From Mycobacterium sp. ENV421 (GTDB lineage Bacteria; Actinomycetota; Actinomycetes; Mycobacteriales; Mycobacteriaceae): a stretch of DNA of 64,000 nucleotides. Position 1 is the stretch's first letter. Each line of letters starts with the position of its first letter. The notes beneath the pieces are model-generated. The model ran no database searches, was not told the origin of the DNA, and was given only the letters and a program-made list of their open reading frames with translations. The stretch covers positions 1 to 64,000 of the forward strand of contig NZ_PDHO01000005.1 of the NCBI RefSeq assembly GCF_002887815.1, read 5' to 3'. Shown in pieces: positions 3,398-15,595 of this stretch. The position numbers and the translations under genes are program-made.

Positions 3398-4147
3398 TTA
3401 GCCTGACGGGGTGTCGATGCCTGGTTGAGAGAAGAGCGATTTGGCGACGATCGGTTGCACGGACGCCCGATCCACTCGACTCATCGCACTGGTGAATGCC
3501 GAAGCTGCTCGCGGGGTGGTGGCGTTCGACGGCTGACGGACGGCTGCCGCCTGTGCGGATGACGTGTTCGGGCTCTCCGCGATGATCCCCTGGCCCAGGC
3601 GGTCGATCTGATTTCCGGTGTCCAGAAAGGGCGGGATCAAGAGCTCCAACGGCTTCGAATCAGATACTTGCGTCGAATTTCGAAGGACTGGTCCGACTGC
3701 CACCACATTCGGCGGGGGTATCGGTCCCGCATTCTGGGCTTTCAACACATTGCTCTTGCTCCCGTCATCGTCGGGCTTGGTCGGGATGTCTGGCCCGCCA
3801 TCGTGATGAGGGTGGGGAGTGGCTTGCACCGGGCCGACGAAGAGCGGTGCCGCGGCGGCGGCCTGGCCAGGCGCCGATGCTGTGGGCGCCATCTGCTCCA
3901 GATACTGCCGCCACGCCTGAAGGTAACCGAACAGCTGTTGTGCGTAGTCCGGCGCGGGCGGCGAGGGCTGTGCCGGCGACGGCATGGCGGGCATGGGATA
4001 TCCAGCGGCCGCCGGGTTGGGCGGCATGAACGGATTGGCGGGAAGTTGAGGGCCACCGCTCGCGGTGGTCCACTGCTGCAGAAGCTGTTGTCCCGCTTGG
4101 AGATAGGCGAACAGCTGCTGCAGGTAATCCGGCGACGGTGTGAACAT
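3398..4147 (-). CDS. Pro/Gln-rich protein with a duplicated 20-residue motif
   Basis: 249 residues. The ATG at 4147 is 3 nt after the FAD-gene stop and has a perfect AGGAGG at 4155-4160, so it is the last gene of the accessory operon. Residues 6-25 (PDYLQQLFAYLQAGQQLLQQ) and 66-85 (PDYAQQLFGYLQAWRQYLEQ) are an amphipathic motif repeated with exactly 60-residue spacing. The two copies are joined by a Pro/Ala/Met linker. A His/Asp/Lys-rich stretch (about 112-130) and a low-complexity C-terminus follow. No signal peptide or membrane helix. I do not recognise a family. Repeated short motifs on flexible linkers are what [14 protein letters not shown] or scaffold tails look like, but that is inference only. 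Confidence 0.7.
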   Translation of the reverse strand: MFTPSPDYLQQLFAYLQAGQQLLQQWTTASGGPQLPANPFMPPNPAAAGYPMPAMPSPAQPSPPAPDYAQQLFGYLQAWRQYLEQMAPTASAPGQAAAAAPLFVGPVQATPHPHHDGGPDIPTKPDDDGSKSNVLKAQNAGPIPPPNVVAVGPVLRNSTQVSDSKPLELLIPPFLDTGNQIDRLGQGIIAESPNTSSAQAAAVRQPSNATTPRAASAFTSAMSRVDRASVQPIVAKSLFSQPGIDTPSG

Positions 4148-4150
4148 GGT

Positions 4151-6421
4151 TTAACCTCCTGCTGGTGCGGTCGGAAGGGCTGAGATGCCGAGCGGGTACG
4201 GAGCCACGATGTCCAAGGGGTGTGGCAGTGAACGCTCGCAAAAGTCTGAATCGATATTGCGGAGGGTGCGGGTGTCGGCCGGCTCTCGGTTCTCGATGTC
4301 GAACACATAGCAGTAGTCGCCGGCCGGTGTCGGCATCCGGATCGGACTGGACAGACTTTGGTCGAGGAAGCCGTACGGGAACACCCACTTCAGCGGCGGG
4401 CTCTTCTCCCGACGGTCGACGCCGCCCGATTCAACCCAGATGTAGTGGTCGAGAATGGCATTCACCGCATGGCGGCCCGACTCGCACGCGGCCTCCATCG
4501 ACGTCAGGCGAGTGAACGTCTTGTTCCACGTGCCGGCGAAGACCACCGAATTGTTGTGGACTTGGTAGCCGCCGTGACGCGCTTGCCAGACGTTGTCCTT
4601 TTCGAGGTTTTCGACCCAGACGTCCTCCGGCGGGATGAAACTCCACGACGTACCATGCGGATTCCACGGCTCGGTGCTGGGCCGATTGCCCCAATCTCCC
4701 ACGATGGGGACCAGATACGGAGTCTTGTTGCGGACCACCCGGCCTTGGCCCTGACCGGGCCCACCCGCCATGACGAGACCGCGATCGAGTGCGTACCACA
4801 TCGGGCTCGGCACGACCCCTTGTCCGCCTGATCCTGAATCGCCGGCCAGTGCGGTGGTGATCTGGCGCCACACTTCCACGGCAATCTCATCGGGCGTGCA
4901 GTCGCGTGCCGCTTTAGGTCGGCCGGACTCGTCGAGCACGTAAGGAGACGGGGTATTGAAATCGCCGATGTCGACCGACAGCACCGAGACGTGGCCGTCG
5001 CGGTCGAGTATCGGACGCTTCTCCCAGAGTCCGGTCTGGTTGACCGACGACAGGGCCCACGGGCTGCCGACGTAAAGCATGTGTCCTCGAACGAGTTGAA
5101 ACTCGGTGTCGAAGTAATATTGGATTCCACAAAGGGTTTGGAAGCGATCCCAGGGCACTCGGCCCAGTTCGTCTATCGAGTAGGGATCCCGCCACTGGGT
5201 GGGTCGGGTGGCGGAAGGTTGCAGCGGGCCCTCGGGTGGCGGCGCTGTGGTGGTGAAGCCCTCCAGCCTGGCCGCAGTACCGCCGGTGCCTCCCGTGTGC
5301 AGCGCGGTTGCGAGGTATTCGGCCGCGGGTGCATCGACAGCGACAACCGTGTAGTCCGCAGTCACCCGTGTACCGTTGGCGAACGCGATCTGCGCACGTG
5401 GCCGCAGATGCGCTGGCTGCTTTGGGTCTGGCACAGGCGGGTCAAGCCGGGTCGCCGCCGTATGGACGAACCGGACGCCGAGCGCGATCAGGTGGTGGTA
5501 CCAATGGTCGAACCACGACTCGGTGGTGGGACCGTTGAGCACACCGTCGGCCTTGTTGTCGCGGCGATCCATGCTCAGGTACAGCTGCAGATTCGTGCTG
5601 AGATTCGTGCGCGCGTCCCCCCAGCGTGAGTCGAGGGCAACCAAAACTCTTGGCATCTGGCGCAATAGCGTGTCGCACTGCGCGGTGTAGGAGTATTTGT
5701 CCGTTCCGGTCTGGGGGTCGTGTCCGACGAGGAAGTCGTATGCCGAGACGTTCTGCAGTTCGAACCTGCGGCGCAGAGGGCTGGTCACAAGGTAGCGAAG
5801 CAGTCTGCTCTGGTAGGTTGCTATGTCGGTCGGAGCGAACCCAAAAGTCGTGAGTTGCGAAAGGACGCTGAGGAATTCAGCTGGGCTGCGCGGAAGTTCG
5901 CGGGGAAACACCAACGATGGCTCTCCGTCGGCGGTGGCGCCTTGGGTAACTACCCGTCGGACGTTGTCGTAGACAGTGCGCGAGGTCGGCGTCCAGTGCG
6001 ATGTGCCGTCGGCTCGACGGGCGTTCTGGTAGACGGGTATTCGCTGGAACATGTCCCAGATGTGCAAGTAGTACGCGGGAAAGAAGCGAAAGCCATGCTC
6101 ACCCGGCACCGCCCGCCCGGGTGCCGGCGGGCGGCCACGACGCCCGGGGAAGGGCCGCAGCTCAGCTTGGCTTCCGTTGTATGTGCCGACCGTCGAATAT
6201 TGGGACGCGGCGAGACCGCCGAGTTTGACAGGCGGATACGCCCCGGCGAATGTGGGGCCCAACCCGTTTCGTTCGTCGTGTTCTGCCTCATAGACCGTGA
6301 CCACGAAACCTCGCTCGGCGAGTTCCTGAGCAGCGGTCAACCCCGCGATGCCGGCACCGATCACCGCTACGGTCGGACGGCGCTTACACGACGCCGGTGT
6401 CGTTATGCCGTGGTCGGTCAC
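4151..6421 (-). CDS. Large FAD-dependent oxidoreductase, phytoene desaturase/hydroxysqualene dehydroxylase type
   Basis: 756 residues from a GTG that overlaps the previous stop (GTGA). The FAD-binding motif GAGIAGLTAAQELAERGF is at about 22-39, with an acidic strand end (VYEAE). A motif typical of carotenoid and squalene amine-oxidase-like desaturases, GEHGFRFFPAYYLHIW, follows at about residues 108-123. The C-terminal cofactor region (FAGTWNKTFTRLTSMEAACESGRHAVNAIL) resembles the family's closing FAD motif. At 756 residues it is much longer than classical CrtI/HpnE (about 450-520), with inserts in the middle and a C-terminal extension. It probably oxidises or dehydrates a polyprenyl substrate. 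The adjacent SCP2-like, CrtC-like and prenyl synthase genes support an isoprenoid role. Confidence 0.85.
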   Translation of the reverse strand: MTDHGITTPASCKRRPTVAVIGAGIAGLTAAQELAERGFVVTVYEAEHDERNGLGPTFAGAYPPVKLGGLAASQYSTVGTYNGSQAELRPFPGRRGRPPAPGRAVPGEHGFRFFPAYYLHIWDMFQRIPVYQNARRADGTSHWTPTSRTVYDNVRRVVTQGATADGEPSLVFPRELPRSPAEFLSVLSQLTTFGFAPTDIATYQSRLLRYLVTSPLRRRFELQNVSAYDFLVGHDPQTGTDKYSYTAQCDTLLRQMPRVLVALDSRWGDARTNLSTNLQLYLSMDRRDNKADGVLNGPTTESWFDHWYHHLIALGVRFVHTAATRLDPPVPDPKQPAHLRPRAQIAFANGTRVTADYTVVAVDAPAAEYLATALHTGGTGGTAARLEGFTTTAPPPEGPLQPSATRPTQWRDPYSIDELGRVPWDRFQTLCGIQYYFDTEFQLVRGHMLYVGSPWALSSVNQTGLWEKRPILDRDGHVSVLSVDIGDFNTPSPYVLDESGRPKAARDCTPDEIAVEVWRQITTALAGDSGSGGQGVVPSPMWYALDRGLVMAGGPGQGQGRVVRNKTPYLVPIVGDWGNRPSTEPWNPHGTSWSFIPPEDVWVENLEKDNVWQARHGGYQVHNNSVVFAGTWNKTFTRLTSMEAACESGRHAVNAILDHYIWVESGGVDRREKSPPLKWVFPYGFLDQSLSSPIRMPTPAGDYCYVFDIENREPADTRTLRNIDSDFCERSLPHPLDIVAPYPLGISALPTAPAGG

Positions 6422-6825
6422 GTTGCACCAGCCCGCAGTTCGGACAGCAGTGCGGGTACCGACGCCGCCCGGACTGCACCGTGTATGTATGCCAGCAGTG
6501 TGTCGTGTGCGCGCTGAATGTCATCGAGGCACCCGTGCACCGACACCGCGCCGCCTTCCACGGCCTCGTCGAGACCGGCGTTGGCATCGATCAGATCGAG
6601 AATGGTGGTTCGCGACGTTCGGATCCGGACGTTGGCCGCCTGCGCGGAGCCGTCCGAGACCTGGAGGCGATGCCCCTGCGCGCGGACCGAAAACACGTCG
6701 TCGCCGACGCCGAGTTCGACCACCATCGGCCCGAGTTCGGCAACCATGAACCGGTAACTGGCGGGCACATCTTCCTCGAGATGCTCGATTGACCGCCGGA
6801 AGAGCGACGAGACCTGTTCAGCCAT
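6418..6825 (-). CDS. SCP2-like lipid carrier domain protein
   Basis: 135 residues from an ATG at 6825, overlapping the CrtC-like stop by 8 nt; its own stop overlaps the FAD gene start by 4 nt. It reads as a single small alpha/beta domain: a helix with RRSIEHLEEDVPASYRFMVAELG, then strands VELGVGDDVFSVRAQGHRLQVSDG, then a helix (SRTTILDLIDANAGLDEAVEGGAVSVHG). The closing segment with GAVSVHG resembles the SCP2 sterol-carrier fold. A plausible job is holding a hydrophobic isoprenoid between the synthase and the FAD enzyme. The family call rests on pattern only. Confidence 0.6.
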   Translation of the reverse strand: MAEQVSSLFRRSIEHLEEDVPASYRFMVAELGPMVVELGVGDDVFSVRAQGHRLQVSDGSAQAANVRIRTSRTTILDLIDANAGLDEAVEGGAVSVHGCLDDIQRAHDTLLAYIHGAVRAASVPALLSELRAGAT

Positions 6826-7840
6826 AAAGGAACTCGAATACACCGGTACCGTCGAAGGCGAAGTTCTCGCCCTTGATCGTGCCGTGCACCCGAACCGTCC
6901 CGTCTGTTTCACACAGCACAGTCGAGCGGTCGGGGCGCACTTCGCTTGGTTGCGCCAGACGAGCGTAGGAACGCGAATGGAACTCGGCATGCACGGAGTC
7001 GCCCACACGTGCCGCGGTGACCGTCACCCGCTCCGGCACACCGGGTATCTCGCCGTCGAGCAGTAGCCGCATAGGAGGGGGGAGAGTGCAATCGGCCGTG
7101 CGGGTGAGCCTGCCGTCCGAGCGCGCCTGGACTGCTGCGTGCCGGAATATCGCGGCGGGTTCGTCGTGGCGCCATACGTAGAGCGATCGCGATACCGACC
7201 GCAACCAGCTGCGGTCGGTTATCTCGACGAACACCATCGACCACGGGTCGTCGGGGGCCGTGGGCAGGATGGTTCCCCAGGTCCAGCCGAAATCGTCGCC
7301 CCAGCGGAATCGGCCCCAGTTGTGGTCGTGATAGGCCAGGTCGTCGTCGAATCGGTGATCTCGGCCGCCGATGTGCAGCCAGCCCTGCGCGCGCAGTCGT
7401 GGCACGAACAGCCAGCTGATCCGGCCTTCGCCAGCCGGTTCGTTGCGAACCACGAACGGCCGGCTGGTCGCGGCGAAGTGTAAATCACCCCGAATGTCTC
7501 GGTCGGGCAGATCTATTGACAGACGGTAGCCGTCAGCCCGGACGGTCATCCGGTTGTTGCCGATCGACAGGCCGCCCAGATCCAGTGAGACCTCGATCGC
7601 GTGTCCGTCGAACCGCTCAATGGCACCGGTCCAGTTCTCGTCGTGGGCGATCACGATGACGCGGGGTGCCGGTCGCACCTCGTCGGCTCCGAAGACTTCG
7701 TTGTTGAGGCTGAAGTTGATCAACACCCGCACGCCGTGACCGTGGATCACGAAGTGATGCCACTCCTTGAAGCCCGCGGGCCGGGCGCCGGCCAAGATCG
7801 GAGTTCGCAGAAAGTCGCTGCGCGCGAGCACGGCGCTCAT
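6818..7840 (-). CDS. CrtC/AttH-like lipocalin-fold enzyme (carotenoid 1,2-hydratase type)
   Basis: 340 residues, ATG overlapping the previous stop (ATGA). The N-terminus has the substrate-cup pattern GFKEWHHFVIHGHGVRVLINFSL. The signature YHDHNWGRFRWGDDFGW falls near residue 170 and is the conserved centre of the CrtC/AttH family, which includes carotenoid hydratases and terpenoid- or polyketide-modifying enzymes. The rest is strand-rich, as expected for a double lipocalin-like barrel. No signal peptide. It probably hydrates or isomerises a polyprenyl chain; the exact reaction cannot be read from sequence. Confidence 0.8.
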   Translation of the reverse strand: MSAVLARSDFLRTPILAGARPAGFKEWHHFVIHGHGVRVLINFSLNNEVFGADEVRPAPRVIVIAHDENWTGAIERFDGHAIEVSLDLGGLSIGNNRMTVRADGYRLSIDLPDRDIRGDLHFAATSRPFVVRNEPAGEGRISWLFVPRLRAQGWLHIGGRDHRFDDDLAYHDHNWGRFRWGDDFGWTWGTILPTAPDDPWSMVFVEITDRSWLRSVSRSLYVWRHDEPAAIFRHAAVQARSDGRLTRTADCTLPPPMRLLLDGEIPGVPERVTVTAARVGDSVHAEFHSRSYARLAQPSEVRPDRSTVLCETDGTVRVHGTIKGENFAFDGTGVFEFLYG

Positions 7841-8115
7841 CGCAGGAACCTTGCTATCGGGACGGTCGAGTCCGCGTCGATGCTCGTATGCAGTTGTTGG
7901 GTGCAGCAGTTGGCTATTCGCTCGACGGCCGAACCCAGGCTGGCGAGCCCCAGCAGGGCGTACCCGAAGTCATCGCAGTCCCGTACCGGGGCGGCGCCGG
8001 GGTCGGTGTCGGAGGCCAGAGCGCGAACCATTTCGGCGAGAGCAGCAAGACCGACCAGATAACCGATGAAATCGCTCTTGTCGGCGAGCGCGTCACGAGG
8101 CTCGGTGAGTGTCAT
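7837..8115 (-). CDS. Orphan small helical protein (92 aa)
   Basis: The ATG at 8115 overlaps the upstream stop (ATGA) and its stop overlaps the CrtC-like ATG (ATGA), so it is locked inside the operon. The product begins MTLTEPRDALADKSD and has two moderately hydrophobic helices (FIGYLVGLAALAEMVRALAS and YALLGLASLGSAVERIANCC) separated by an acidic loop. A Cys-Cys pair and a Thr/Asp-rich tail follow. The helices are amphipathic rather than clear membrane spans. I recognise no family. Double coupling argues it is a real, stoichiometrically controlled component. Confidence 0.65.
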   Translation of the reverse strand: MTLTEPRDALADKSDFIGYLVGLAALAEMVRALASDTDPGAAPVRDCDDFGYALLGLASLGSAVERIANCCTQQLHTSIDADSTVPIARFLR

Positions 8116-8570
8116 GTGAACCCCTCGGGCCGCAGCCGCGCCAAGGTGGTGTCGTCGAGGCCGTGTCCGACGAGAGCATCGACCAGGAGATCGGCCCAGG
8201 CGTCGGGGGTTCCGCTGGGCGCAGCGGGGCCGCCGAGAGTGTTGAGGCTCACCATCTCCCACACCCGGCGCAGGTTCTCCACCGATTCGGACGCTGCCAG
8301 TCCGTCGCGCAGTCGCGCTCCGCGGGGAGTATGGGCATAGCGGCGTCCCTCGGCCACCAGAAGGTCGTGCAGCCTGCGAGCGGCTGCTGGGTTGCCGAGC
8401 ACCGCACGCCGGGCGCCGATCAGCAGGTCGAAGAACGCCCGTTGCGTCCCATCGGCCTCTTCTGGTGGCGGCGGGTGCAAGTGTGGTGTCTCCCGCTCGA
8501 TGAGGTCGAGAGTGAGTTCGCGGAGTCGCTCGAGTTCCGCGAGCATGCCGGCCATCTGTTCGGGGGTCAT
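8112..8570 (-). CDS. Orphan helical protein (152 aa)
   Basis: 152 residues from an ATG that overlaps the polyprenyl synthase stop by 4 nt. It starts with a Leu/Glu/Arg helix that looks like a coiled coil (AGMLAELERLRELTLDLIERE), has a four-proline linker near residue 33, then an all-helical body with FFDLLIGARRAVLGNPAAARRLHDLL and a final small domain (PDAWADLLVDALVGHGLDDTTLARL). No membrane segment or signal peptide. The family is not recognised. Its position between the prenyl synthase and the CrtC-like enzyme suggests an accessory subunit of the same complex. Confidence 0.7.
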   Translation of the reverse strand: MTPEQMAGMLAELERLRELTLDLIERETPHLHPPPPEEADGTQRAFFDLLIGARRAVLGNPAAARRLHDLLVAEGRRYAHTPRGARLRDGLAASESVENLRRVWEMVSLNTLGGPAAPSGTPDAWADLLVDALVGHGLDDTTLARLRPEGFT

Positions 8571-9772
8571 CGCGTCCGCCCGTGCACGTAGTCCACGAGA
8601 TCGGCCAGCACGTCGCGGTGACGGCTGTGCGGGAACCAGTCGAACGTTGCCAGCACCGCGGCCGCCTGCCGGGTATGTGTCGCGGCGACATCACGCGCAT
8701 GCCGCAGCGATCCGACGTCGTGCATCAAGTCGAACAGCCAGCGAATGTCATTGATACTCTTGCAGTCCGACGGCTGGTGCCCCTGCAGGCGGGCTTCGAG
8801 TTCGACGCGCCCTGCCTGGGACAGTTCGCCTTGTGCCGCCAGTCGGTCCAGCAGCTCGGTCAGACCTTCACCGTCGGGACTCGGGCGGCGCTTGGCCAAA
8901 ACCCCCAGGGCCCGAGCCTGATCCTTCGGTTCGGCGTGCCGCAGGGTGTGCAGGAGCATCAGGGTTCGCTTGCCCTCCCACAGATCCCCGCCGATCTCCT
9001 TGCCGTACTCCTGCGGGTCGCCCCGAAGATTGAGCAGGTCGTCGGTGATCTGGAATGCCGCGCCGAGATGGCGTCCGAAGGACTCCAACGGGTCCATCCG
9101 CTCGGGCCCGACCCCCGCCGCGATAGCGCCCGCTTGTAGGGGTGTGATGAAGGTGTACCAACTGGTTTTCAGTTCCACCATCCTCAGGTAGTCGGCGTCG
9201 TCGAGCTGCCAACTGTTGGACCGCACCCAGTCGAGCTCCAAAGCTTGGCCGTCGACGGTCAGCCGCGTCATCTTGGCCACCGCGCGCAGGATGCGCAGTG
9301 CCGGCCCGAGTCCCACTCGCTCGACATTGTCGAGCAGCGGTTGCAGTGACAGTGAGAGCATGGCATCGCCGACATTGATGGCGATCGGGACACCGTGGTC
9401 GATGTGCAAGGTGGGTTTGCCGCGCCGCCACCAGGATTCGTCCTCGATGTCATCGTGGATCAGAAACGCGTTGTGGTAGAGCTCCAGGGTTGCCGCCGTG
9501 GGTAGCACCGCTTCGAGATGGCCGCCGAGCCCGAGGCATGTCGCGATGCTCAGCGCAGGCCGAAGCGCCTTACCGCCGCGCAGCGGATAGTCGAGGATCA
9601 GATCGTAGAGGCTGCCGTTTCCACGCTCACCCGGACCGTACAGCCGTGCTATTTCACCGTCGCAGGCCTCTTTACACAGTGCGAGATAGTCGTCGAGCGG
9701 GCGTGCCGGTGGCGGCGTGGGCCCGCTTGAAGCGGGCTTAGGGGTTGTGGATATTGGCGAGGCCGAGGTCAT
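8567..9772 (-). CDS. Polyprenyl diphosphate synthase with disordered N-terminus and C-terminal extension
   Basis: 401 residues. It builds prenyl diphosphates from allylic diphosphate and isopentenyl diphosphate. The first Asp-rich motif DDIED is at 107-111 and the second DDLLN at 244-248, with GGKALRP (66-72) and GKRT (267-270) also in place, so it should be active. DDLLN is common in geranylgeranyl diphosphate synthases. Two unusual parts stand out: residues 1-25 are Ser/Thr/Pro-rich and apparently disordered, and about 90 residues follow the usual end of the fold. The ATG at 9772 overlaps the shell-like gene by 35 nt. No better internal start was found. Confidence 0.93.
   Translation of the reverse strand: MTSASPISTTPKPASSGPTPPPARPLDDYLALCKEACDGEIARLYGPGERGNGSLYDLILDYPLRGGKALRPALSIATCLGLGGHLEAVLPTAATLELYHNAFLIHDDIEDESWWRRGKPTLHIDHGVPIAINVGDAMLSLSLQPLLDNVERVGLGPALRILRAVAKMTRLTVDGQALELDWVRSNSWQLDDADYLRMVELKTSWYTFITPLQAGAIAAGVGPERMDPLESFGRHLGAAFQITDDLLNLRGDPQEYGKEIGGDLWEGKRTLMLLHTLRHAEPKDQARALGVLAKRRPSPDGEGLTELLDRLAAQGELSQAGRVELEARLQGHQPSDCKSINDIRWLFDLMHDVGSLRHARDVAATHTRQAAAVLATFDWFPHSRHRDVLADLVDYVHGRTR
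9721..9737 (-). repeat. Perfect hairpin directly after the shell-like gene's stop codon
   Basis: A 17-nt inverted repeat with 8-bp arms (GCCCGCTT/AAGCGGGC) around a single base. It begins at the base next to the TAA (9738-9740) of the 255-aa gene and lies inside the N-terminal linker codons of the downstream prenyl synthase. No T-tract follows, so it is not a classic terminator. It could partly block readthrough or ribosome passage and lower synthase output relative to the shell protein. Confidence 0.6.
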
Positions 9773-10505
9773 CCGTGATCCTCAAGGCGTACCGGATCCG
9801 TGCGGTGAGCTGTATATGGCCGCCGCCGGTCTCGCCGTCGATCTCCAGGCTCGGCGGAAGGCTGACGGCGACGTCTACCGGCTCCTCGGCAGGCGACGCA
9901 TCAGGCGCTGAGCCCTGGGGGATTCGCCTTCGACGGCCAAGCACCACGATCCGCGTGTCAGGGTCCGCTCCGTCGAGATGCGTGGTCCGGTGCAGTGCGT
10001 TGACGTTCGCCCCGGTGAGCAGGCCGTCCAAAATTGAAGACCCGCTGACAAACTGGCTGAGATTGGTCAGCCCCTTCGTGTTGGTGATCAGGCACGATGG
10101 CGCCCGATACCCGCCATCCTCCACATGCGCACGGGCGGTGATCAGTTTCTTCAGCAGATCATTGTCGCCGTTGGTTGTTGGCAGGCTCAGGGTCGCGCTT
10201 GTGTAGAGCTGCGGCAGGATCGCGTCATCGACGTTCTTGGCGAGCACCTTCGTCCTGGCCATGACTTCCGTGAGTAGTGCGTCAGGAGTGGGCCCATTCG
10301 CTTGGGCGAGAGTCACGTCAAACGGCAGTTGTGCCAATGTCAGATTGAGAAAGCCCGGCGGATTGTATTTGCCGTCAGCGACTTGGATCTGGCCGGGATC
10401 ACCGACGTCCCAGTGCGGGATGGCCTGCCAGACAATGCTGCATTGCGCGAAAGTGTCGCGAACCGCCTGGTTGGCCAAGGCGAATCGTTCTGCGCTCAAA
10501 TACAT
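9738..10505 (-). CDS. Probable HK97-fold (encapsulin-type) shell protein
   Basis: 255 residues from an ATG at 10505 with a CGGGGG purine-rich stretch upstream. No signal peptide or membrane segment. The layout follows small encapsulins of about 260-280 residues. There is an N-arm (1-40). A strand segment FLNLTLAQLPFDVTLAQANG (52-71) leads into a long helix PTPDALLTEVMARTKVLAKNVDDAI (72-96), as in the family-1 segment before the spine helix. GGYRAPSCLITNTKGLTNL (131-149) matches the position of the family's GPY-LVINT segment. RIVVLGRRRRI (185-195) and a closing strand pair (VDVAVSLPPSLEIDGE and IQLTARIRYALRITDD, 210-246) resemble the terminal P/A-domain strands. I see no close match to a named encapsulin family, so the assignment is by pattern. 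The gene heads an operon of isoprenoid enzymes. Confidence 0.6.
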   Translation of the reverse strand: MYLSAERFALANQAVRDTFAQCSIVWQAIPHWDVGDPGQIQVADGKYNPPGFLNLTLAQLPFDVTLAQANGPTPDALLTEVMARTKVLAKNVDDAILPQLYTSATLSLPTTNGDNDLLKKLITARAHVEDGGYRAPSCLITNTKGLTNLSQFVSGSSILDGLLTGANVNALHRTTHLDGADPDTRIVVLGRRRRIPQGSAPDASPAEEPVDVAVSLPPSLEIDGETGGGHIQLTARIRYALRITDDLGLANIHNP

Positions 10506-10599: not shown

Positions 10600-10613
10600 A
10601 GTAGTGCACTACT
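10600..10613. promoter_or_regulatory. 14-bp perfect palindrome over the cyclase stop codon
   Basis: AGTAGTGCACTACT is a perfect palindrome that includes the TAG stop of the upstream cyclase gene. It lies 95 nt before the shell-like gene. It may be an operator for a homodimeric regulator controlling the enzyme operon, or a small attenuator hairpin. The stop codon contributes part of the symmetry, so chance cannot be excluded. Confidence 0.35.
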
Positions 10614-13600
10614 TACTCAGGAGAACGATTTCTTGGCCGGGGTCCATTTCGCCACGCGTCATCGCATCACAGTGAGCTAAGTGCAGTGGCGCAACAGGAT
10701 CGTCGGGCAGCAACTGTCGGCAGCGTTCGAAGGCGGCGCGGGCCTTGTCGACATCTCCCGCGTCGAACAGTGCGAAGGCTTCGTCGAAGGCGGGCTGTGC
10801 CGCACGCTTGGCCTCTCGCACTTCATCCGGATCCGATTCGTACACTTCATAAATCGTCACCTGCTGGCGTCTGTTGACCACTCTGACCCGTTCCATGCGG
10901 CGGGTGTCGAACTCCGCCAGATGGGCAATCCGCGCCTGGGTCTGATCGGAGATCAGCAACGCCGACCCGTACCGCTTGTTGGTGCTCTCGATACGCGCAG
11001 CGAGGTTGACTGCGTCACCGATGATGGTGAGAACCATCCGGTTGACCCCACCAACCAGACCGACCCCCACGGTGCCGGTGGTGATCCCGATGCCGGCCCG
11101 CAGCTCCTGGGAACCAAGTGCTGCGCGCTCCTGGTTGTGATCGTGCAGAGACCGCAGCATGCCCAACCCCGCGCGGACAGCATCGGGCTCGGACTCGAAG
11201 ACGGCGACGATCTCGTCGCCGCGCATGTCTTGGATCATGCCGTTGTAGCTGATGATCGGTAGTTCCATGGCGCGCAGAAAGTCCGTCGCCAGGTTGCCCG
11301 CGTCGGCGACGTTCATATCCTCGATCATCGTGGTGTAGCTACGGATGTCGCTGATGAGTACCGTCATCTCGCGTTCGACCCGGTAGCCGCTGCGGACGCG
11401 GCGGAGGTCGTCGATGTCGAGGATGCGCAGGAGTTTGTTCGGCACGAATCGTGACTGAACGTCCATCAGGGACTGTCGGTACTCGTCGGCGGCCCGAAGT
11501 CGTGCCTCGAGTTGAAAGTTCGACAGCGGCGCCGCTGCTTGTGCACACACGAACTCGACCGCCTGCTTGTGGTCGGCGCTGAAAACTCCTGCAGATTCGC
11601 CCTTCTCGGCGTATACAACACCGATTATGTTGTCGTGCAGACGGATCGGGGAAGCGAGCACAGAAAGAGTTGTTGCTGCGCGATCAACGGCAACAATGAC
11701 AGGTGATCCCTCGTCGATCACTCGACGCACGATCGTCGGGTCGTAGGCGACTTCGGTCCACGGTCCGTCCACCATCGAGATGGCGCCGCGGTCATTGACG
11801 GCGCGAACTTCCAGGTGTTCGGGCCCGCCGGTGAGGAACAGGACGCGATCTGCGCCGGTGGTGTCGGCCACCGAGCCCAGAACGATGTTGGCCAGAGTGT
11901 CCGCCGTCCGCGCGGAAGACAACGAGTGGAGCAACTGGTGTGCCCCGACCGGATCGATACCTCCCGAACCCGACAGATCGCGCCGCAGTAGCCAGGGGTG
12001 CTCCCGTGCCAGCCTGTCGGCGCGCACCACGAAACCCAGGTTCTGCCATCGCTGGTAGGCCCTGCGCAGCATGTGTTCGCCGAGGGTCGCCCGCCCGGTT
12101 TCGGCGTAGAGCGCGGCGACCTCCTCGTGGGTGTACGCGCTCACCATCGGAAGTTGATGCTCCTCGGCAAGTCCGATCGCCTGATGAAGAAAGCGATCGG
12201 CCTTGGTGTTCTGGCCGCGCGCTCGCGCCCACGCCCCCTGAATGAGCGCATAGGATGCCGCATAATTCTCCGGTGCCCCCGCCGCCCACTTGCGGTGCAA
12301 CGCCAGAGCCTGACGGACGAAGCGAGTGGTCGCGGAATCCTTTGGTGCGCTGTGGATCATGCCAAGTGCGCCGAGTAGGTACACGAATTGTGAGGCAGGA
12401 ACCCCGGCCAGGCCGTCGATGTGCTCGATCGCCTCATGCGTGGCGGCGGCCGCGCCGGCGTAGTCACCGCACCAGAAATGCAGTCCCTGCTTCACGGCCG
12501 CGGCCGCGGCGAGCGTCACGGCATCGCCCTCGCTGCGCGCGGCTGGAAGCACGTCTCGCTCGTCGTAACCGCTCTCGCCGGCAAGCAGGAGCGGATCGGC
12601 GCTGCGCCCCATCAAATTGAGGCACAGTTGCTGCACGGCCTGGCAGAGGGCACTGGGCACGGGCTGTGAACGGATTTGCGGGATCAGGGATCTGGCGAGG
12701 GCGTCGATCTCGGCCAGCGGACGACCAAGCCAGAACGACTGAGAGAGCAGCACCGCGACCAGGAAGCCGGCGTTTTCCTGGTCGCCTTGGTCGAGTGCTG
12801 CATCCACCGCACCGCGAAGCTCAGACACCCCGTCGCGGATGGGGTGGCGCCAGTGATGGATGTAGTCGAGATACATGAAAACGACCTGCGGACGGGCCTC
12901 CCGGAATTCCGGTCGCGCGGCGAGTGCCCGCCCCACCTCACCGAAGCGCTGGGCGCCCGCGTGGTCGCCGAGCAAGACCAGCACGATTCCGTACCCGGCG
13001 ATGACCACTGGAGAGGAGGGCGTGTGGCCGTGCGCCAGCGTGAGATCGAGTTGCTTGCGGACTAATAACGGCAGGATGTTGGGCCGGATCAGGACCGCCA
13101 AATTGCACAGCTCGGCGAGGATCGGGTGAAGCGCGATGACCCGCTCGTCTTCGCAGTGCCGCAGCGCGAGCAGGCGTTCGTTGCTCCAGCGCCGCATCGT
13201 CAGTTTCATCTGGACGATGGCGTTGCCCATCCGGGGTTTGCCTGCGTCGGAAGCGATGGGTTCGCCGAGCTGGCGGAGAGCGTGGAGGCCTGTCTCGAGC
13301 GCATCCTGGAGGCGATTCTCGGTGACGCAGCCTTTGAGACGTAGATAGGCGATCCGCGCGCGGTCCGGCGGCTGGTGCAGGAACCGCTCGGCTTCGTCGA
13401 GCAGCGCGTTGAGTGTCGTCGCATCACCGACGAGCAATGCGGCGTCCGCGGCGTCGAGTTGCAGGTCTCGCGTCAGCGCGAAGTCTGTGCTCCAGCGTTG
13501 GTCGCCGAGCAGGTCCAGCGCATTGCGGCAGTAGTCGAGCGCCAGCGGAAAGGAGGCCTGCGCCCGAGCTTTTCGAGCCGCACGCCGTACGACTTCGACG

Positions 13601-14916
13601 AAGCCGCTGCGTTCCGCTTCTTCGGTCGCTTCGACGCCGGCGAGGCCGATATGGCGCGCCGCATCGAAGACGCGGTCATCCCCGAGTGTGATCAGCCGTC
13701 GACCGATGCGCAGATGGATGGCACGCAAGGTGTCGTCCGACAGCTCCGCGCGGGCGGCTTCGGCCACACGATCGTGGCTGAACCGATAGCGGGCGTCGCG
13801 GCTGATCGCGTTGGTGATCCGTTGCCCACCCGCGTCGAGCGCCTCGACCAGCCGGAGTTCGAGGCACTCCCACAATGCGCGGGCCACCACGTCGGGCGAC
13901 TTCGCAGCCGCCGCGATGGCGTCCTCGAGGTCGAACTCGCCGCCGATGCACGCCAGCGAACTCAACACCTCCCGATCCGGCGGGCGAAGCTGGTCGAGGT
14001 AGCGGCCCAGGAACTCGGCGGCGGTGGCGGACACCTCGATCGAGGTGAGCAGGCGCAGATCCCAGCGTGGATGGCCGCCCGGGCCGACCGGTACCAGCGC
14101 GCCCTCGCGTTGGGCACGGTAGAACAGTTGCCGGACGTGCAGGGGGTTGCCCCCTGTCCGATGATGAAACTCGGCGGCCACGTCGCCCATCTCCACGCTG
14201 CGGCCGCACACATCGGCCAGCAGCTCTTCGACGTCGGCGAGGCCCAGCGGTTCGAGCTGGATGGCCTGCAGGCCGTCCGATTTCAGGGCGACCCCGGCCG
14301 GATCGAACTCGCCCTCCCGGTGGGCGCCGAGAACCAGGACGTTGCGCAGCGACACCGTCAGCAGTTCAGCCAACAGCAACAGCGTGTCCCGGTCGGCCCA
14401 CTGGAGGTCGTCGATAGCCAGCACCACCGGTCGATACGACGCAGTGGCGGCGAGCAGCCGGATGACGGCACGGTGTAGCTGGTGTCGAGAGTCGGCGGCG
14501 TCGAGCTCGGTAGGATTGGCGAATTCGCCTAGTAGCGAAGCTAATTCGGGTACGAGTTCGGCGAGGATCCCCGCGAACCCGGACATCTCGGCGACGAGTT
14601 CGGCTTGCCACCGGGTGCGTTCGGCCGGGCCGGTGGCTTGCATGGTGCGCACGATCGAGCCCAGCGCGACGGACAACGCCGCGTACGGCGCCGGGGCGTC
14701 AGCACGGCACCTCCCGTAGCCGAACACGCACCCGCCGCGGGATACCTCGATGCCGAAGGCTTGGATCAACGTCGACTTGCCGACGCCCGGTGCGCCGCTC
14801 AGCAGCAGGCACGCCCCGCCGGCGCGCCCCGCCGCGTCGACCGCGGCCCGGAGGTCGGCGAGTTCGTTCCGTCGGTCGACGACACGACCGCCGAGGTCCA
14901 GAACCGGTGTCGTCAC
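10609..14916 (-). CDS. Giant ATPase/GAF/class III nucleotide cyclase regulator
   Basis: 1435 residues from a GTG at 14916. Domains in order: an AAA_16/STAND-type ATPase with Walker A GAPGVGKST (41-49) and Walker B VVLAIDDLQWAD (about 160-172); a long helical, TPR-like middle (about 350-1000); a GAF-like sensor domain (about 1005-1150); a class III cyclase domain with ISDIRSYT (first metal Asp near 1188), MRGDEIVAVF (second near 1230) and GDAVNLAARIE (transition-state Asn and Arg); and a short C-terminal TPR. Metal and transition-state residues are present. The usual base-recognition Lys, three residues before the GD pair, is Asp here (DMRGDE), so ATP specificity is uncertain. It lies 104 nt upstream of the shell operon on the same strand and is probably its sensor. 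Confidence 0.9.
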   Translation of the reverse strand: MTTPVLDLGGRVVDRRNELADLRAAVDAAGRAGGACLLLSGAPGVGKSTLIQAFGIEVSRGGCVFGYGRCRADAPAPYAALSVALGSIVRTMQATGPAERTRWQAELVAEMSGFAGILAELVPELASLLGEFANPTELDAADSRHQLHRAVIRLLAATASYRPVVLAIDDLQWADRDTLLLLAELLTVSLRNVLVLGAHREGEFDPAGVALKSDGLQAIQLEPLGLADVEELLADVCGRSVEMGDVAAEFHHRTGGNPLHVRQLFYRAQREGALVPVGPGGHPRWDLRLLTSIEVSATAAEFLGRYLDQLRPPDREVLSSLACIGGEFDLEDAIAAAAKSPDVVARALWECLELRLVEALDAGGQRITNAISRDARYRFSHDRVAEAARAELSDDTLRAIHLRIGRRLITLGDDRVFDAARHIGLAGVEATEEAERSGFVEVVRRAARKARAQASFPLALDYCRNALDLLGDQRWSTDFALTRDLQLDAADAALLVGDATTLNALLDEAERFLHQPPDRARIAYLRLKGCVTENRLQDALETGLHALRQLGEPIASDAGKPRMGNAIVQMKLTMRRWSNERLLALRHCEDERVIALHPILAELCNLAVLIRPNILPLLVRKQLDLTLAHGHTPSSPVVIAGYGIVLVLLGDHAGAQRFGEVGRALAARPEFREARPQVVFMYLDYIHHWRHPIRDGVSELRGAVDAALDQGDQENAGFLVAVLLSQSFWLGRPLAEIDALARSLIPQIRSQPVPSALCQAVQQLCLNLMGRSADPLLLAGESGYDERDVLPAARSEGDAVTLAAAAAVKQGLHFWCGDYAGAAAATHEAIEHIDGLAGVPASQFVYLLGALGMIHSAPKDSATTRFVRQALALHRKWAAGAPENYAASYALIQGAWARARGQNTKADRFLHQAIGLAEEHQLPMVSAYTHEEVAALYAETGRATLGEHMLRRAYQRWQNLGFVVRADRLAREHPWLLRRDLSGSGGIDPVGAHQLLHSLSSARTADTLANIVLGSVADTTGADRVLFLTGGPEHLEVRAVNDRGAISMVDGPWTEVAYDPTIVRRVIDEGSPVIVAVDRAATTLSVLASPIRLHDNIIGVVYAEKGESAGVFSADHKQAVEFVCAQAAAPLSNFQLEARLRAADEYRQSLMDVQSRFVPNKLLRILDIDDLRRVRSGYRVEREMTVLISDIRSYTTMIEDMNVADAGNLATDFLRAMELPIISYNGMIQDMRGDEIVAVFESEPDAVRAGLGMLRSLHDHNQERAALGSQELRAGIGITTGTVGVGLVGGVNRMVLTIIGDAVNLAARIESTNKRYGSALLISDQTQARIAHLAEFDTRRMERVRVVNRRQQVTIYEVYESDPDEVREAKRAAQPAFDEAFALFDAGDVDKARAAFERCRQLLPDDPVAPLHLAHCDAMTRGEMDPGQEIVLLSK

Positions 14917-15067: not shown

Positions 15068-15595
15068 TCAGGGGCGCAGGCCGGAAAGGATCATCTCGGC
15101 GAAGACCTCGCCGATCTCCGTCAATGAGCACCGCCCGCTGGGCGCGTACCACCGATGAATCCAGTTGTGCATCCCGAGAATTCCGTGGGTCACCAGCCGG
15201 GGCTCCAGGTCGGCGCGGAAAACCCCTGTGCCGACGCCCTCCTCGACGATCGCGAGTAGAGCTTGGACGTAATCCTCGGCGTTGCTGCTGATGCCCTCTG
15301 CGTCGGGAATCGCGGCGATGTGCTGACTCTCGTTGAACAGCAGGAACAACTCCGGATGGTTCTCGAGGTCGTCGACGTAACAATGCAGTGCGGCACGCAG
15401 TTTGACGTCGGCCGGCGCGTCGGATTCCAGCGCGGCACGGCAGTGCCGCGTCATGTCACGGGCCGGCTCCTCGATGAGGGCGAGCAGCAACTCTTCCTTG
15501 GTTCCGACGTAGTAGTAGAGCGACGCCCGGTTGATGCCGACTTCGGCGGCCACGTCTTCGAGCCGGGCTCGGGCAAATCCCTCCCGCCGGAACAC
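15068..15595 (-). CDS. TetR-family transcriptional regulator (start unresolved)
   Basis: The helix-turn-helix reads DVAAEVGINRASLYYYVGTKEELL, a textbook TetR signature, followed by an all-helical ligand-binding domain ending in HNWIHRWYAPSGRCSLTEIGEVFAEMIL. The first usable start codon, GTG at 15595, lies inside helix 1, which would cut the DNA-binding domain. The same frame stays open back to 15745 and encodes a typical basic lead (ARRRIERRAADRRASNERW) but contains no ATG, GTG or TTG. Another frame from a TTG at 15749 gives ETDPRHTPAERQRQ, which also looks like a TetR N-terminus. Either a one-base frameshift or a non-standard start must be involved. It is the likely local regulator of the accessory block. 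Confidence 0.75.
   Translation of the reverse strand: MFRREGFARARLEDVAAEVGINRASLYYYVGTKEELLLALIEEPARDMTRHCRAALESDAPADVKLRAALHCYVDDLENHPELFLLFNESQHIAAIPDAEGISSNAEDYVQALLAIVEEGVGTGVFRADLEPRLVTHGILGMHNWIHRWYAPSGRCSLTEIGEVFAEMILSGLRP

Follow-up and report, generated by a model that had tools for sequence, protein, structure and literature searches.

Introduction

Four encapsulin families are named in the sections of PMC8346489 that deal with classification, and prenyltransferase partners are placed there in Family 2B; these prenyltransferases are proposed as cargo, and the Family 2B partners carry 50–100 disordered residues. The same sections distinguish Family 1 by an N-terminal helix that takes the place of an extended N-arm, and this helix forms part of the targeting-peptide pocket. 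In the relevant parts of PMC8346489 and PMC12407261, the encapsulin operons that encode terpenoid enzymes are those of Family 2B, and the SrpI cargo is described in the corresponding part of PMC8049743 as having a sparsely conserved, disordered-type stretch of 225 residues with two motifs. Here we describe a gene cassette from Mycobacterium sp. ENV421 (contig NZ_PDHO01000005.1, positions 1 to 64,000; this whole stretch of 64,000 nucleotides is referred to as the window) in which a 255-residue protein with a predicted Family 1-type HK97 fold is encoded together with isoprenoid-type enzymes. We take the shell protein to represent a new lineage of encapsulin-like proteins that has a new pathway joined to it, and we favour, with some reservation, a reading in which the encapsulin-like shell holds a flavin adenine dinucleotide (FAD) oxidoreductase by means of a repeat tail while the neighbouring proteins make an isoprenoid lipid. 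The features of the cassette are as follows, in the order of transcription (aa, amino acids; nt, nucleotides; GGPP, geranylgeranyl diphosphate).

10609–14916, minus strand: cyclase gene, STAND/AAA_16 ATPase, GAF and class III adenylyl/guanylyl cyclase, 1435 aa; first cassette gene
9738–10505, minus strand: encapsulin-like shell protein, 255 aa, predicted HK97 fold
9873–9926, minus strand: codons of shell loop residues 194–211, RIPQGSAPDASPAEEPVD; highly conserved, poorly modelled
8567–9772, minus strand: polyprenyl (short-chain, GGPP-type) diphosphate synthase, 401 aa (PF00348)
8112–8570, minus strand: orfA, conserved orphan, 152 aa, C-terminus LRPEGF plus one residue (16-locus alignment)
7837–8115, minus strand: orfB, small orphan, 92 aa (16-locus alignment)
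6818–7840, minus strand: AttH/CrtC-type double-lipocalin-fold protein, 340 aa (predicted structure)
6418–6825, minus strand: SCP2-like lipid carrier, 135 aa; Pfam SCP2 below cut-off, position conserved in 22/22 loci
4151–6421, minus strand: FAD oxidoreductase (amine oxidase/phytoene desaturase type), 756 aa, candidate cargo
4155–4159, minus strand: GGAGG ribosome-binding site within the end of the FAD gene, 7 nt ahead of the tail ATG
3398–4147, minus strand: Pro-rich repeat tail gene, a separate gene in the window

Predicted structure and sequence of the shell protein

The structure of the shell protein was predicted with AlphaFold, and fold searches with the model returned an HK97/encapsulin-like fold and not an unrelated one, in agreement with the HK97-like shell proposed in a preliminary description of this locus made from the DNA alone. 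The model contains the HK97 core at full length, with the N-terminal helix, the spine helix and the A-domain, and superimposes on encapsulins with a root-mean-square deviation (rmsd) of 2.2 Å over 233 residues; the structural matches to Family 1 have 12–15% sequence identity. Encapsulins score better than HK97-type capsids in the fold search. Predicted viral capsids also match, with E-values of about 1e-12. The N-terminal helix comprises residues 5–22 of the model, and the alignment starts at residue 1, opposite chain residue 9–12 in most of the Family 1 structures. Short matches to RecA in the search of solved structures were taken as chance.

The sequence of the protein is far from those of known encapsulins. 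At E-values up to 10, 89 shell family members were touched by 11 NCBIfam families in all, none of them an encapsulin model, and the 255 residues hold no cyclic nucleotide (cNMP)-binding insert, in agreement with the earlier remark that the shell does not look like Family 2. When 24 genomes were searched with PF04454, the shell locus was not among the matches. In profile–profile alignment with hhalign, a profile of 211 shell proteins (of 215, lengths of 230–330 aa) matched a profile of 35 Family 1 encapsulins (of 36 from loci of the same phylum, after a length filter) with an E-value of 5e-4 over 232 collinear columns, against 0.078–0.66 for five unrelated profiles and 0.04 over 45 columns for Family 2B. 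With the alignment of 89 shell sequences the Family 1 E-value was 0.0072, and those of the controls were 0.1–0.79. The method misses even the known relation between Family 1 and Family 2B (E 0.26), and for this reason weak E-values of this kind are no evidence that a relation is absent. Going by the model, we class the shell protein as encapsulin-like, its monomer being of the Family 1 type although the Family 1 sequence model does not recognize it.

Conservation in the shell alignment is highest over the N-terminal 45 residues, residues 121–150 and residues 196–225. The last of these stretches overlaps the loop of residues 194–211, where the predicted local distance difference test (pLDDT) score falls below 50 at residues 195–205 and the mean frequency of the majority residue is 0.82 at residues 196–210; in the profile alignment the loop lies mostly opposite a gap in Family 1. 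The mean pairwise identity of the shell proteins is 0.50, compared with 0.65–0.76 for the enzymes and the carrier of the cassette. Shell homologues are mostly named hypothetical protein in the databases. Two of those listed (P0026 and P0178) bear the UniRef name 'Phage major capsid protein', which was perhaps assigned automatically.

Linkage and distribution of the cassette

All of the cassette genes in the window are on the minus strand, and the overlaps are unbroken from the shell gene to the FAD gene, with 35 nt shared by the shell and synthase genes, 8 nt by the CrtC-like and SCP2-like genes and otherwise 4 nt (ATGA/GTGA); the GTG start of the FAD gene overlaps the SCP2-like stop. The open reading frame (ORF) positions and the overlapping order agree with those given in the preliminary description. 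The genes it listed all belong to the cassette, which was drawn too short at both ends, as it left out the cyclase/STAND gene, separated from the shell gene by 103 nt, and the tail gene, whose ATG lies in frame 3 nt past the TAA of the FAD gene.

Conservation of the cassette was followed in two sets of loci that overlap, so that their counts are not additive. The first holds 22 loci fetched from genus genomes with a shell match, and the second holds 41 loci from a scan of named genomes with two peptide patterns (39 from Mycobacterium/Mycolicibacterium and two from Pseudonocardiales). The synthase gene follows the shell gene in 22/22 loci of the first set, with the cassette genes in the same order throughout; one CrtC-like match is in three pieces, and the cyclase gene is present in all 22, one copy being cut by a contig start. 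In the second set the synthase follows the shell in 40/41 loci, the remaining locus ending inside the shell gene at a contig end, and the cassette is complete through the FAD gene in 38/41; in the other three it is truncated by a contig end. The association of the shell with an isoprenoid cassette, as first proposed, is thus maintained, and because the same genes are found together in 22/22 and in 41 loci, as far as the contigs reach, the gene order is not due to chance. In the window, dapB lies on the far side of the tail gene with two small ORFs between; it adjoins the cassette in 6/41 loci only, so the surroundings of the cassette differ between genomes.

A search with the shell gave matches in 23 of the 198 genus genomes, and one with orfA gave exactly the same 23. 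In a sample of the order, 7/298 genomes have the shell, one of them outside the genus. A sample of the phylum gave a shell match in 7/396 genomes, six of which are within the genus; the match in the seventh (G691, E 3.5e-4) is in a frame antisense to a cysteine-synthase-like ORF and was taken as chance. In viral contigs, 27 stretches carry the search pattern and none of them encodes a shell relative. No PHROG match under E 0.2 was obtained for the six proteins tested, and no phage genes were seen with Pfam, NCBIfam and PHROGs among the window proteins scanned, which represent part of the window genes.

A true PF04454 encapsulin is encoded elsewhere in 21 of 24 cassette genomes, and cassette-bearing cells therefore likely have two encapsulin-type shells. 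One such classical PF04454 encapsulin (L100, G000:C34:35701-36453) lies at another place in the same genome as a cassette. The Family 2B search matched 140/178 genomes at an E-value of 0.001, most of these matches being due to the cyclic-nucleotide domain and falling short of the cut-off, so that only the 8/178 genomes with a match over cut-off count as having Family 2B; the window genome has no match over cut-off.

Several loci depart from the common arrangement. In Pseudonocardia eucalypti (L078) the cyclase gene is inverted and placed at the far end of the cassette, where it remains a direct neighbour; this favours a functional link over an accident of gene order. In Mycobacterium lepraemurium (L082) the cassette is present with its cyclase, shell, CrtC-like and FAD matches in pieces, which suggests decay. 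In a locus from another family of the phylum (L135, G699:C3:100500-120400), a synthase of 45% identity is grouped with CrtC-like and SCP2-like matches. Neither a shell nor an FAD relative was detected there, and the match of this locus to the orfB profile (E 8.5e-4) is in a doubtful frame. A TetR-like gene at 15068–15595 of the window, upstream of the cyclase gene, is matched in 2/41 loci only (L043 and L049) and for this reason is probably not part of the system.

The FAD oxidoreductase and its repeat tail

The Pfam matches of the FAD enzyme, to NAD_binding_8 (E 1e-8) and Amino_oxidase (E 6e-7), are limited to its Rossmann start, and matches in a search of solved structures are confined to the same region. 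The tail was analysed in 38 loci, namely the window and 37 of the 41-locus set (L065, L075, L082 and L083 were left out). It forms a C-terminal extension of the FAD enzyme in 19/38 loci and is separate in the other 19. Where the two genes are split, their relative frame and their overlap vary, and because of this the fission or fusion of the FAD and tail genes probably occurred more than once.

A GGAGG sequence stands 6 or 7 nt ahead of the tail start codon in 37/38 loci, including 18/19 of the fused genes and with L054, which lacks a GGAGG, as the exception, in counts for which the script chose starts by the GGAGG criterion and which, the loci being related, do not stand for 37 (in fused genes, 18) independent cases. 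In the fused genes the GGAGG codes for glycines, and GGA makes up 13% of the glycine codons of these genes. Its retention in the fused genes suggests, from the sequence, that they also yield a free tail by internal initiation, so that one gene would give two proteins.

Thirty-six tails were usable, one tail without the GGAGG start and one masked tail having been left out. The tail contains 17% proline. A helix motif resembling QL(F/L)xYLQAWR, a pattern defined after looking at the tails, occurs in 64 copies in the 36 tails compared with 0.005 in residue shuffles; 28 tails have two copies, as does the window tail, and 8 have one. A second motif, resembling PKSLF, is found in 22/36 tails compared with 0.3 in shuffles. 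The mean pairwise identity of the tail is 0.31, compared with 0.75 for the FAD domain. In the window genome the tail occurs once, the second match (E 0.09) not being significant. From its composition the tail is probably disordered, and by analogy it looks like a cargo-loading tail; since it belongs to the FAD enzyme, that enzyme is the likelier cargo.

The other cassette proteins

Both the polyprenyl diphosphate synthase and the FAD oxidoreductase had been recognized in the preliminary description, and Pfam bears this out, at the Rossmann start for the oxidoreductase and for the synthase with a PF00348 match of E 7e-59 (199 bits compared with a cut-off of 27). The first synthase motif, DDIED, is invariant in 16 loci, the second is DDLLN, and the closest solved relatives are the GGPP synthases 1wmw and 1wy0. 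The CrtC/AttH assignment is upheld by the predicted structure, which shows the AttH/CrtC double-lipocalin fold; in sequence, DUF2804 touches 15/15 members (best E 0.01; window copy 15 bits compared with a cut-off of 26.9) and the tocopherol cyclase model 5/15 (best E 0.031), and neither match reaches the curated level. On the basis of the model this protein is likely a hydratase, cyclase or lyase acting on a hydrophobic substrate. The SCP2-like carrier named earlier does match SCP2 in Pfam, at an E-value of 0.027 that falls below the curated cut-off; its matches to TolC among solved structures were taken as chance. Sequence searches of solved structures returned no relatives of the CrtC-like protein or of orfA. 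The N-terminal two thirds of orfB are better conserved than the remainder in the 16-locus alignment. Pfam matches of the cyclase gene are to AAA_16 (E 1e-26), GAF (E 2e-6) and Guanylate_cyc (E 4e-7), and the cyclase region is conserved in an alignment of 34 sequences.

Proposed function and alternatives

In the proposed mechanism, the 255-residue protein likely assembles into a small closed shell, with the FAD oxidoreductase held inside through its own tail or through the free tail made beside the fusion protein by internal initiation. The tail would bind the inner face of the shell, and the conserved N-terminal helix may serve as the binding site, as it does in Family 1. The prenyl synthase would make a C20-type prenyl diphosphate, this compound or a derivative would be modified by the FAD enzyme and the AttH/CrtC-type protein, and the SCP2-like protein would carry the oily product or an intermediate. 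Cyclic adenosine monophosphate (cAMP) from the upstream cyclase may regulate the system. With a flavin oxidase sealed in the shell, any peroxide would be confined along with an intermediate that is reactive or poorly soluble. As judged from the models, the cell likely carries out part of its isoprenoid chemistry inside a small protein compartment. A wider proposal, that this is a fifth encapsulin lineage with a Family 1-type shell that sequence models do not see, two-form tail loading and a cAMP switch, constituting a terpenoid-making organelle in mycobacteria and Pseudonocardia in addition to the ordinary encapsulin, is put forward more tentatively, as somewhat short of an even prospect.

A number of observations weigh against the proposed mechanism. 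The shell fold is a prediction, and of the five models from AlphaFold two were of low quality, with mean pLDDT of 68.4 and 54.7. The window shell protein has no Pfam match at E-values up to 10; Linocin_M18 (PF04454) touches 2/89 shell homologues with a best E-value of 0.058 and is equalled or outscored by unrelated families, such as DEC-1_N in 4/89 with a best E-value of 0.0058. The hhalign probability for the relation to Family 1 was 32%, and 5% with the smaller, 89-sequence alignment. In half of the 38 loci the FAD enzyme and the tail are encoded as separate proteins, and loading there would therefore have to work in trans. The choice of starts and the relatedness of the loci limit the GGAGG count, the PKSLF-like motif is missing from the tails beyond the 22, and the 8 tails with a single helix motif include that of the deep branch L078. 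To our knowledge the tail motif is not among the known targeting peptides of Family 1. No terpene cyclase or phytoene synthase is found among the cassette proteins in the Pfam and NCBIfam scans, and we infer the substrate of every cassette enzyme.

The preliminary description drew a parallel with Family 2B, and an arrangement of that kind would have the shell package the prenyl synthase, the tail of the FAD enzyme having another role, such as binding to membranes or lipid droplets through amphipathic helices. The adjacency of an HK97-fold gene and a prenyl synthase gene, which overlap in the window, holds as described; the best NCBIfam model of the synthase is the Family 2 encapsulin cargo prenyltransferase (189 bits, below the cut-off of 450), and Family 2B prenyltransferases are proposed as cargo in the sections of PMC8346489 cited above. 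The pointer to the synthase as cargo is weakened: its variable N-terminal stretch is about 10–30 residues long with no shared motif in 16 aligned loci, compared with the 50–100 disordered residues given there for Family 2B, and the tail with repeated motifs belongs instead to the FAD enzyme. We consider packaging of the synthase unlikely. The shell protein might alternatively form an open scaffold, such as a sheet, ring or partial shell, with the enzymes clustered outside it in a metabolon lacking a lumen. The loop of residues 194–211, conserved and poorly modelled, is a feature of this family, and it agrees with such a scaffold, as does the faster divergence of the shell relative to the enzymes and carrier; the full-length HK97 core nevertheless matches cage-forming encapsulins over 233 residues, and the N-terminal 45 residues and residues 121–150 are strongly conserved, so that we give an open scaffold little credence.

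A degraded prophage might have left the shell gene behind as an isolated capsid gene, near an isoprenoid operon by chance; we consider this highly improbable. The HK97 fold, the two UniRef labels and the matches to predicted viral capsids would fit such an origin, but the shell shares its 23 genomes with orfA and lies in differing neighbourhoods, no relative was found in the viral contigs and no PHROG match came under the threshold for the six proteins tested, and encapsulins fit the shell better than HK97-type capsids do. A prophage capsid as its current identity was rejected on the strength of the scan of viral contigs together with the co-occurrence with orfA.

We return to the proposed FAD-loading shell. 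No description of the cassette was found in the titles and abstract starts that searches of open-licence PMC papers listed, a set that holds neither bioRxiv nor subscription papers. If the shell assembles, it represents a lineage of protein organelles missed by sequence models, given that Pfam does not match the window protein and PF04454 touches so few homologues. If the remainder of the proposal is true, a Family 1-type compartment is paired with lipid biosynthesis rather than with stress enzymes, the system illustrates the retention of an oily and possibly reactive intermediate within a protein enclosure, and the tail is a natural one for the loading of cargo. Because each of the 198 genus genomes has either both the shell and orfA or neither, the cassette also offers a genetic handle on a mycobacterial isoprenoid, the putative product.

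Comparison with known systems

The CrtC-like protein resembles the group of AttH, CrtC, kievitone hydratase and pericyclase in fold, with 9–14% identity in the structural matches. The shell protein shares the HK97 fold, as predicted, with encapsulins generally, and it differs from phage capsids in that the cassette loci are without phage genes as far as the loci, PHROGs and viral contigs were searched. Family 4 is truncated to the A-domain, whereas the shell protein matches HK97 at full length. The surrounding genes are different from those given for Family 3, with its NRPS, PKS and sulfotransferase clusters, in the part of PMC8346489 that describes them.

Like Family 2B, the cassette places an HK97 fold beside a prenyl diphosphate synthase, and both have a link to cyclic nucleotides, which is here a cyclase gene beside the shell gene and there a cNMP-binding domain inside the shell. 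The shell protein itself differs from Family 2 in having neither this insert nor a match to an NCBIfam encapsulin model. As in Family 2A, where SrpI is paired with a cysteine desulfurase, the candidate cargo has a sparsely conserved, probably disordered stretch with short motifs. The fold is nearer to Family 1 (M. xanthus EncA and the T. maritima and mycobacterial encapsulins, PF04454) than to Family 2, and in the model the N-terminal helix is shared with Family 1. The shell protein departs from this family in its low sequence identity, in the missing PF04454 match of the window protein and in the conserved extra loop, and the two differ also in what accompanies the shell, which is peroxidase or ferritin cargo in Family 1 and a terpenoid-type cassette here.

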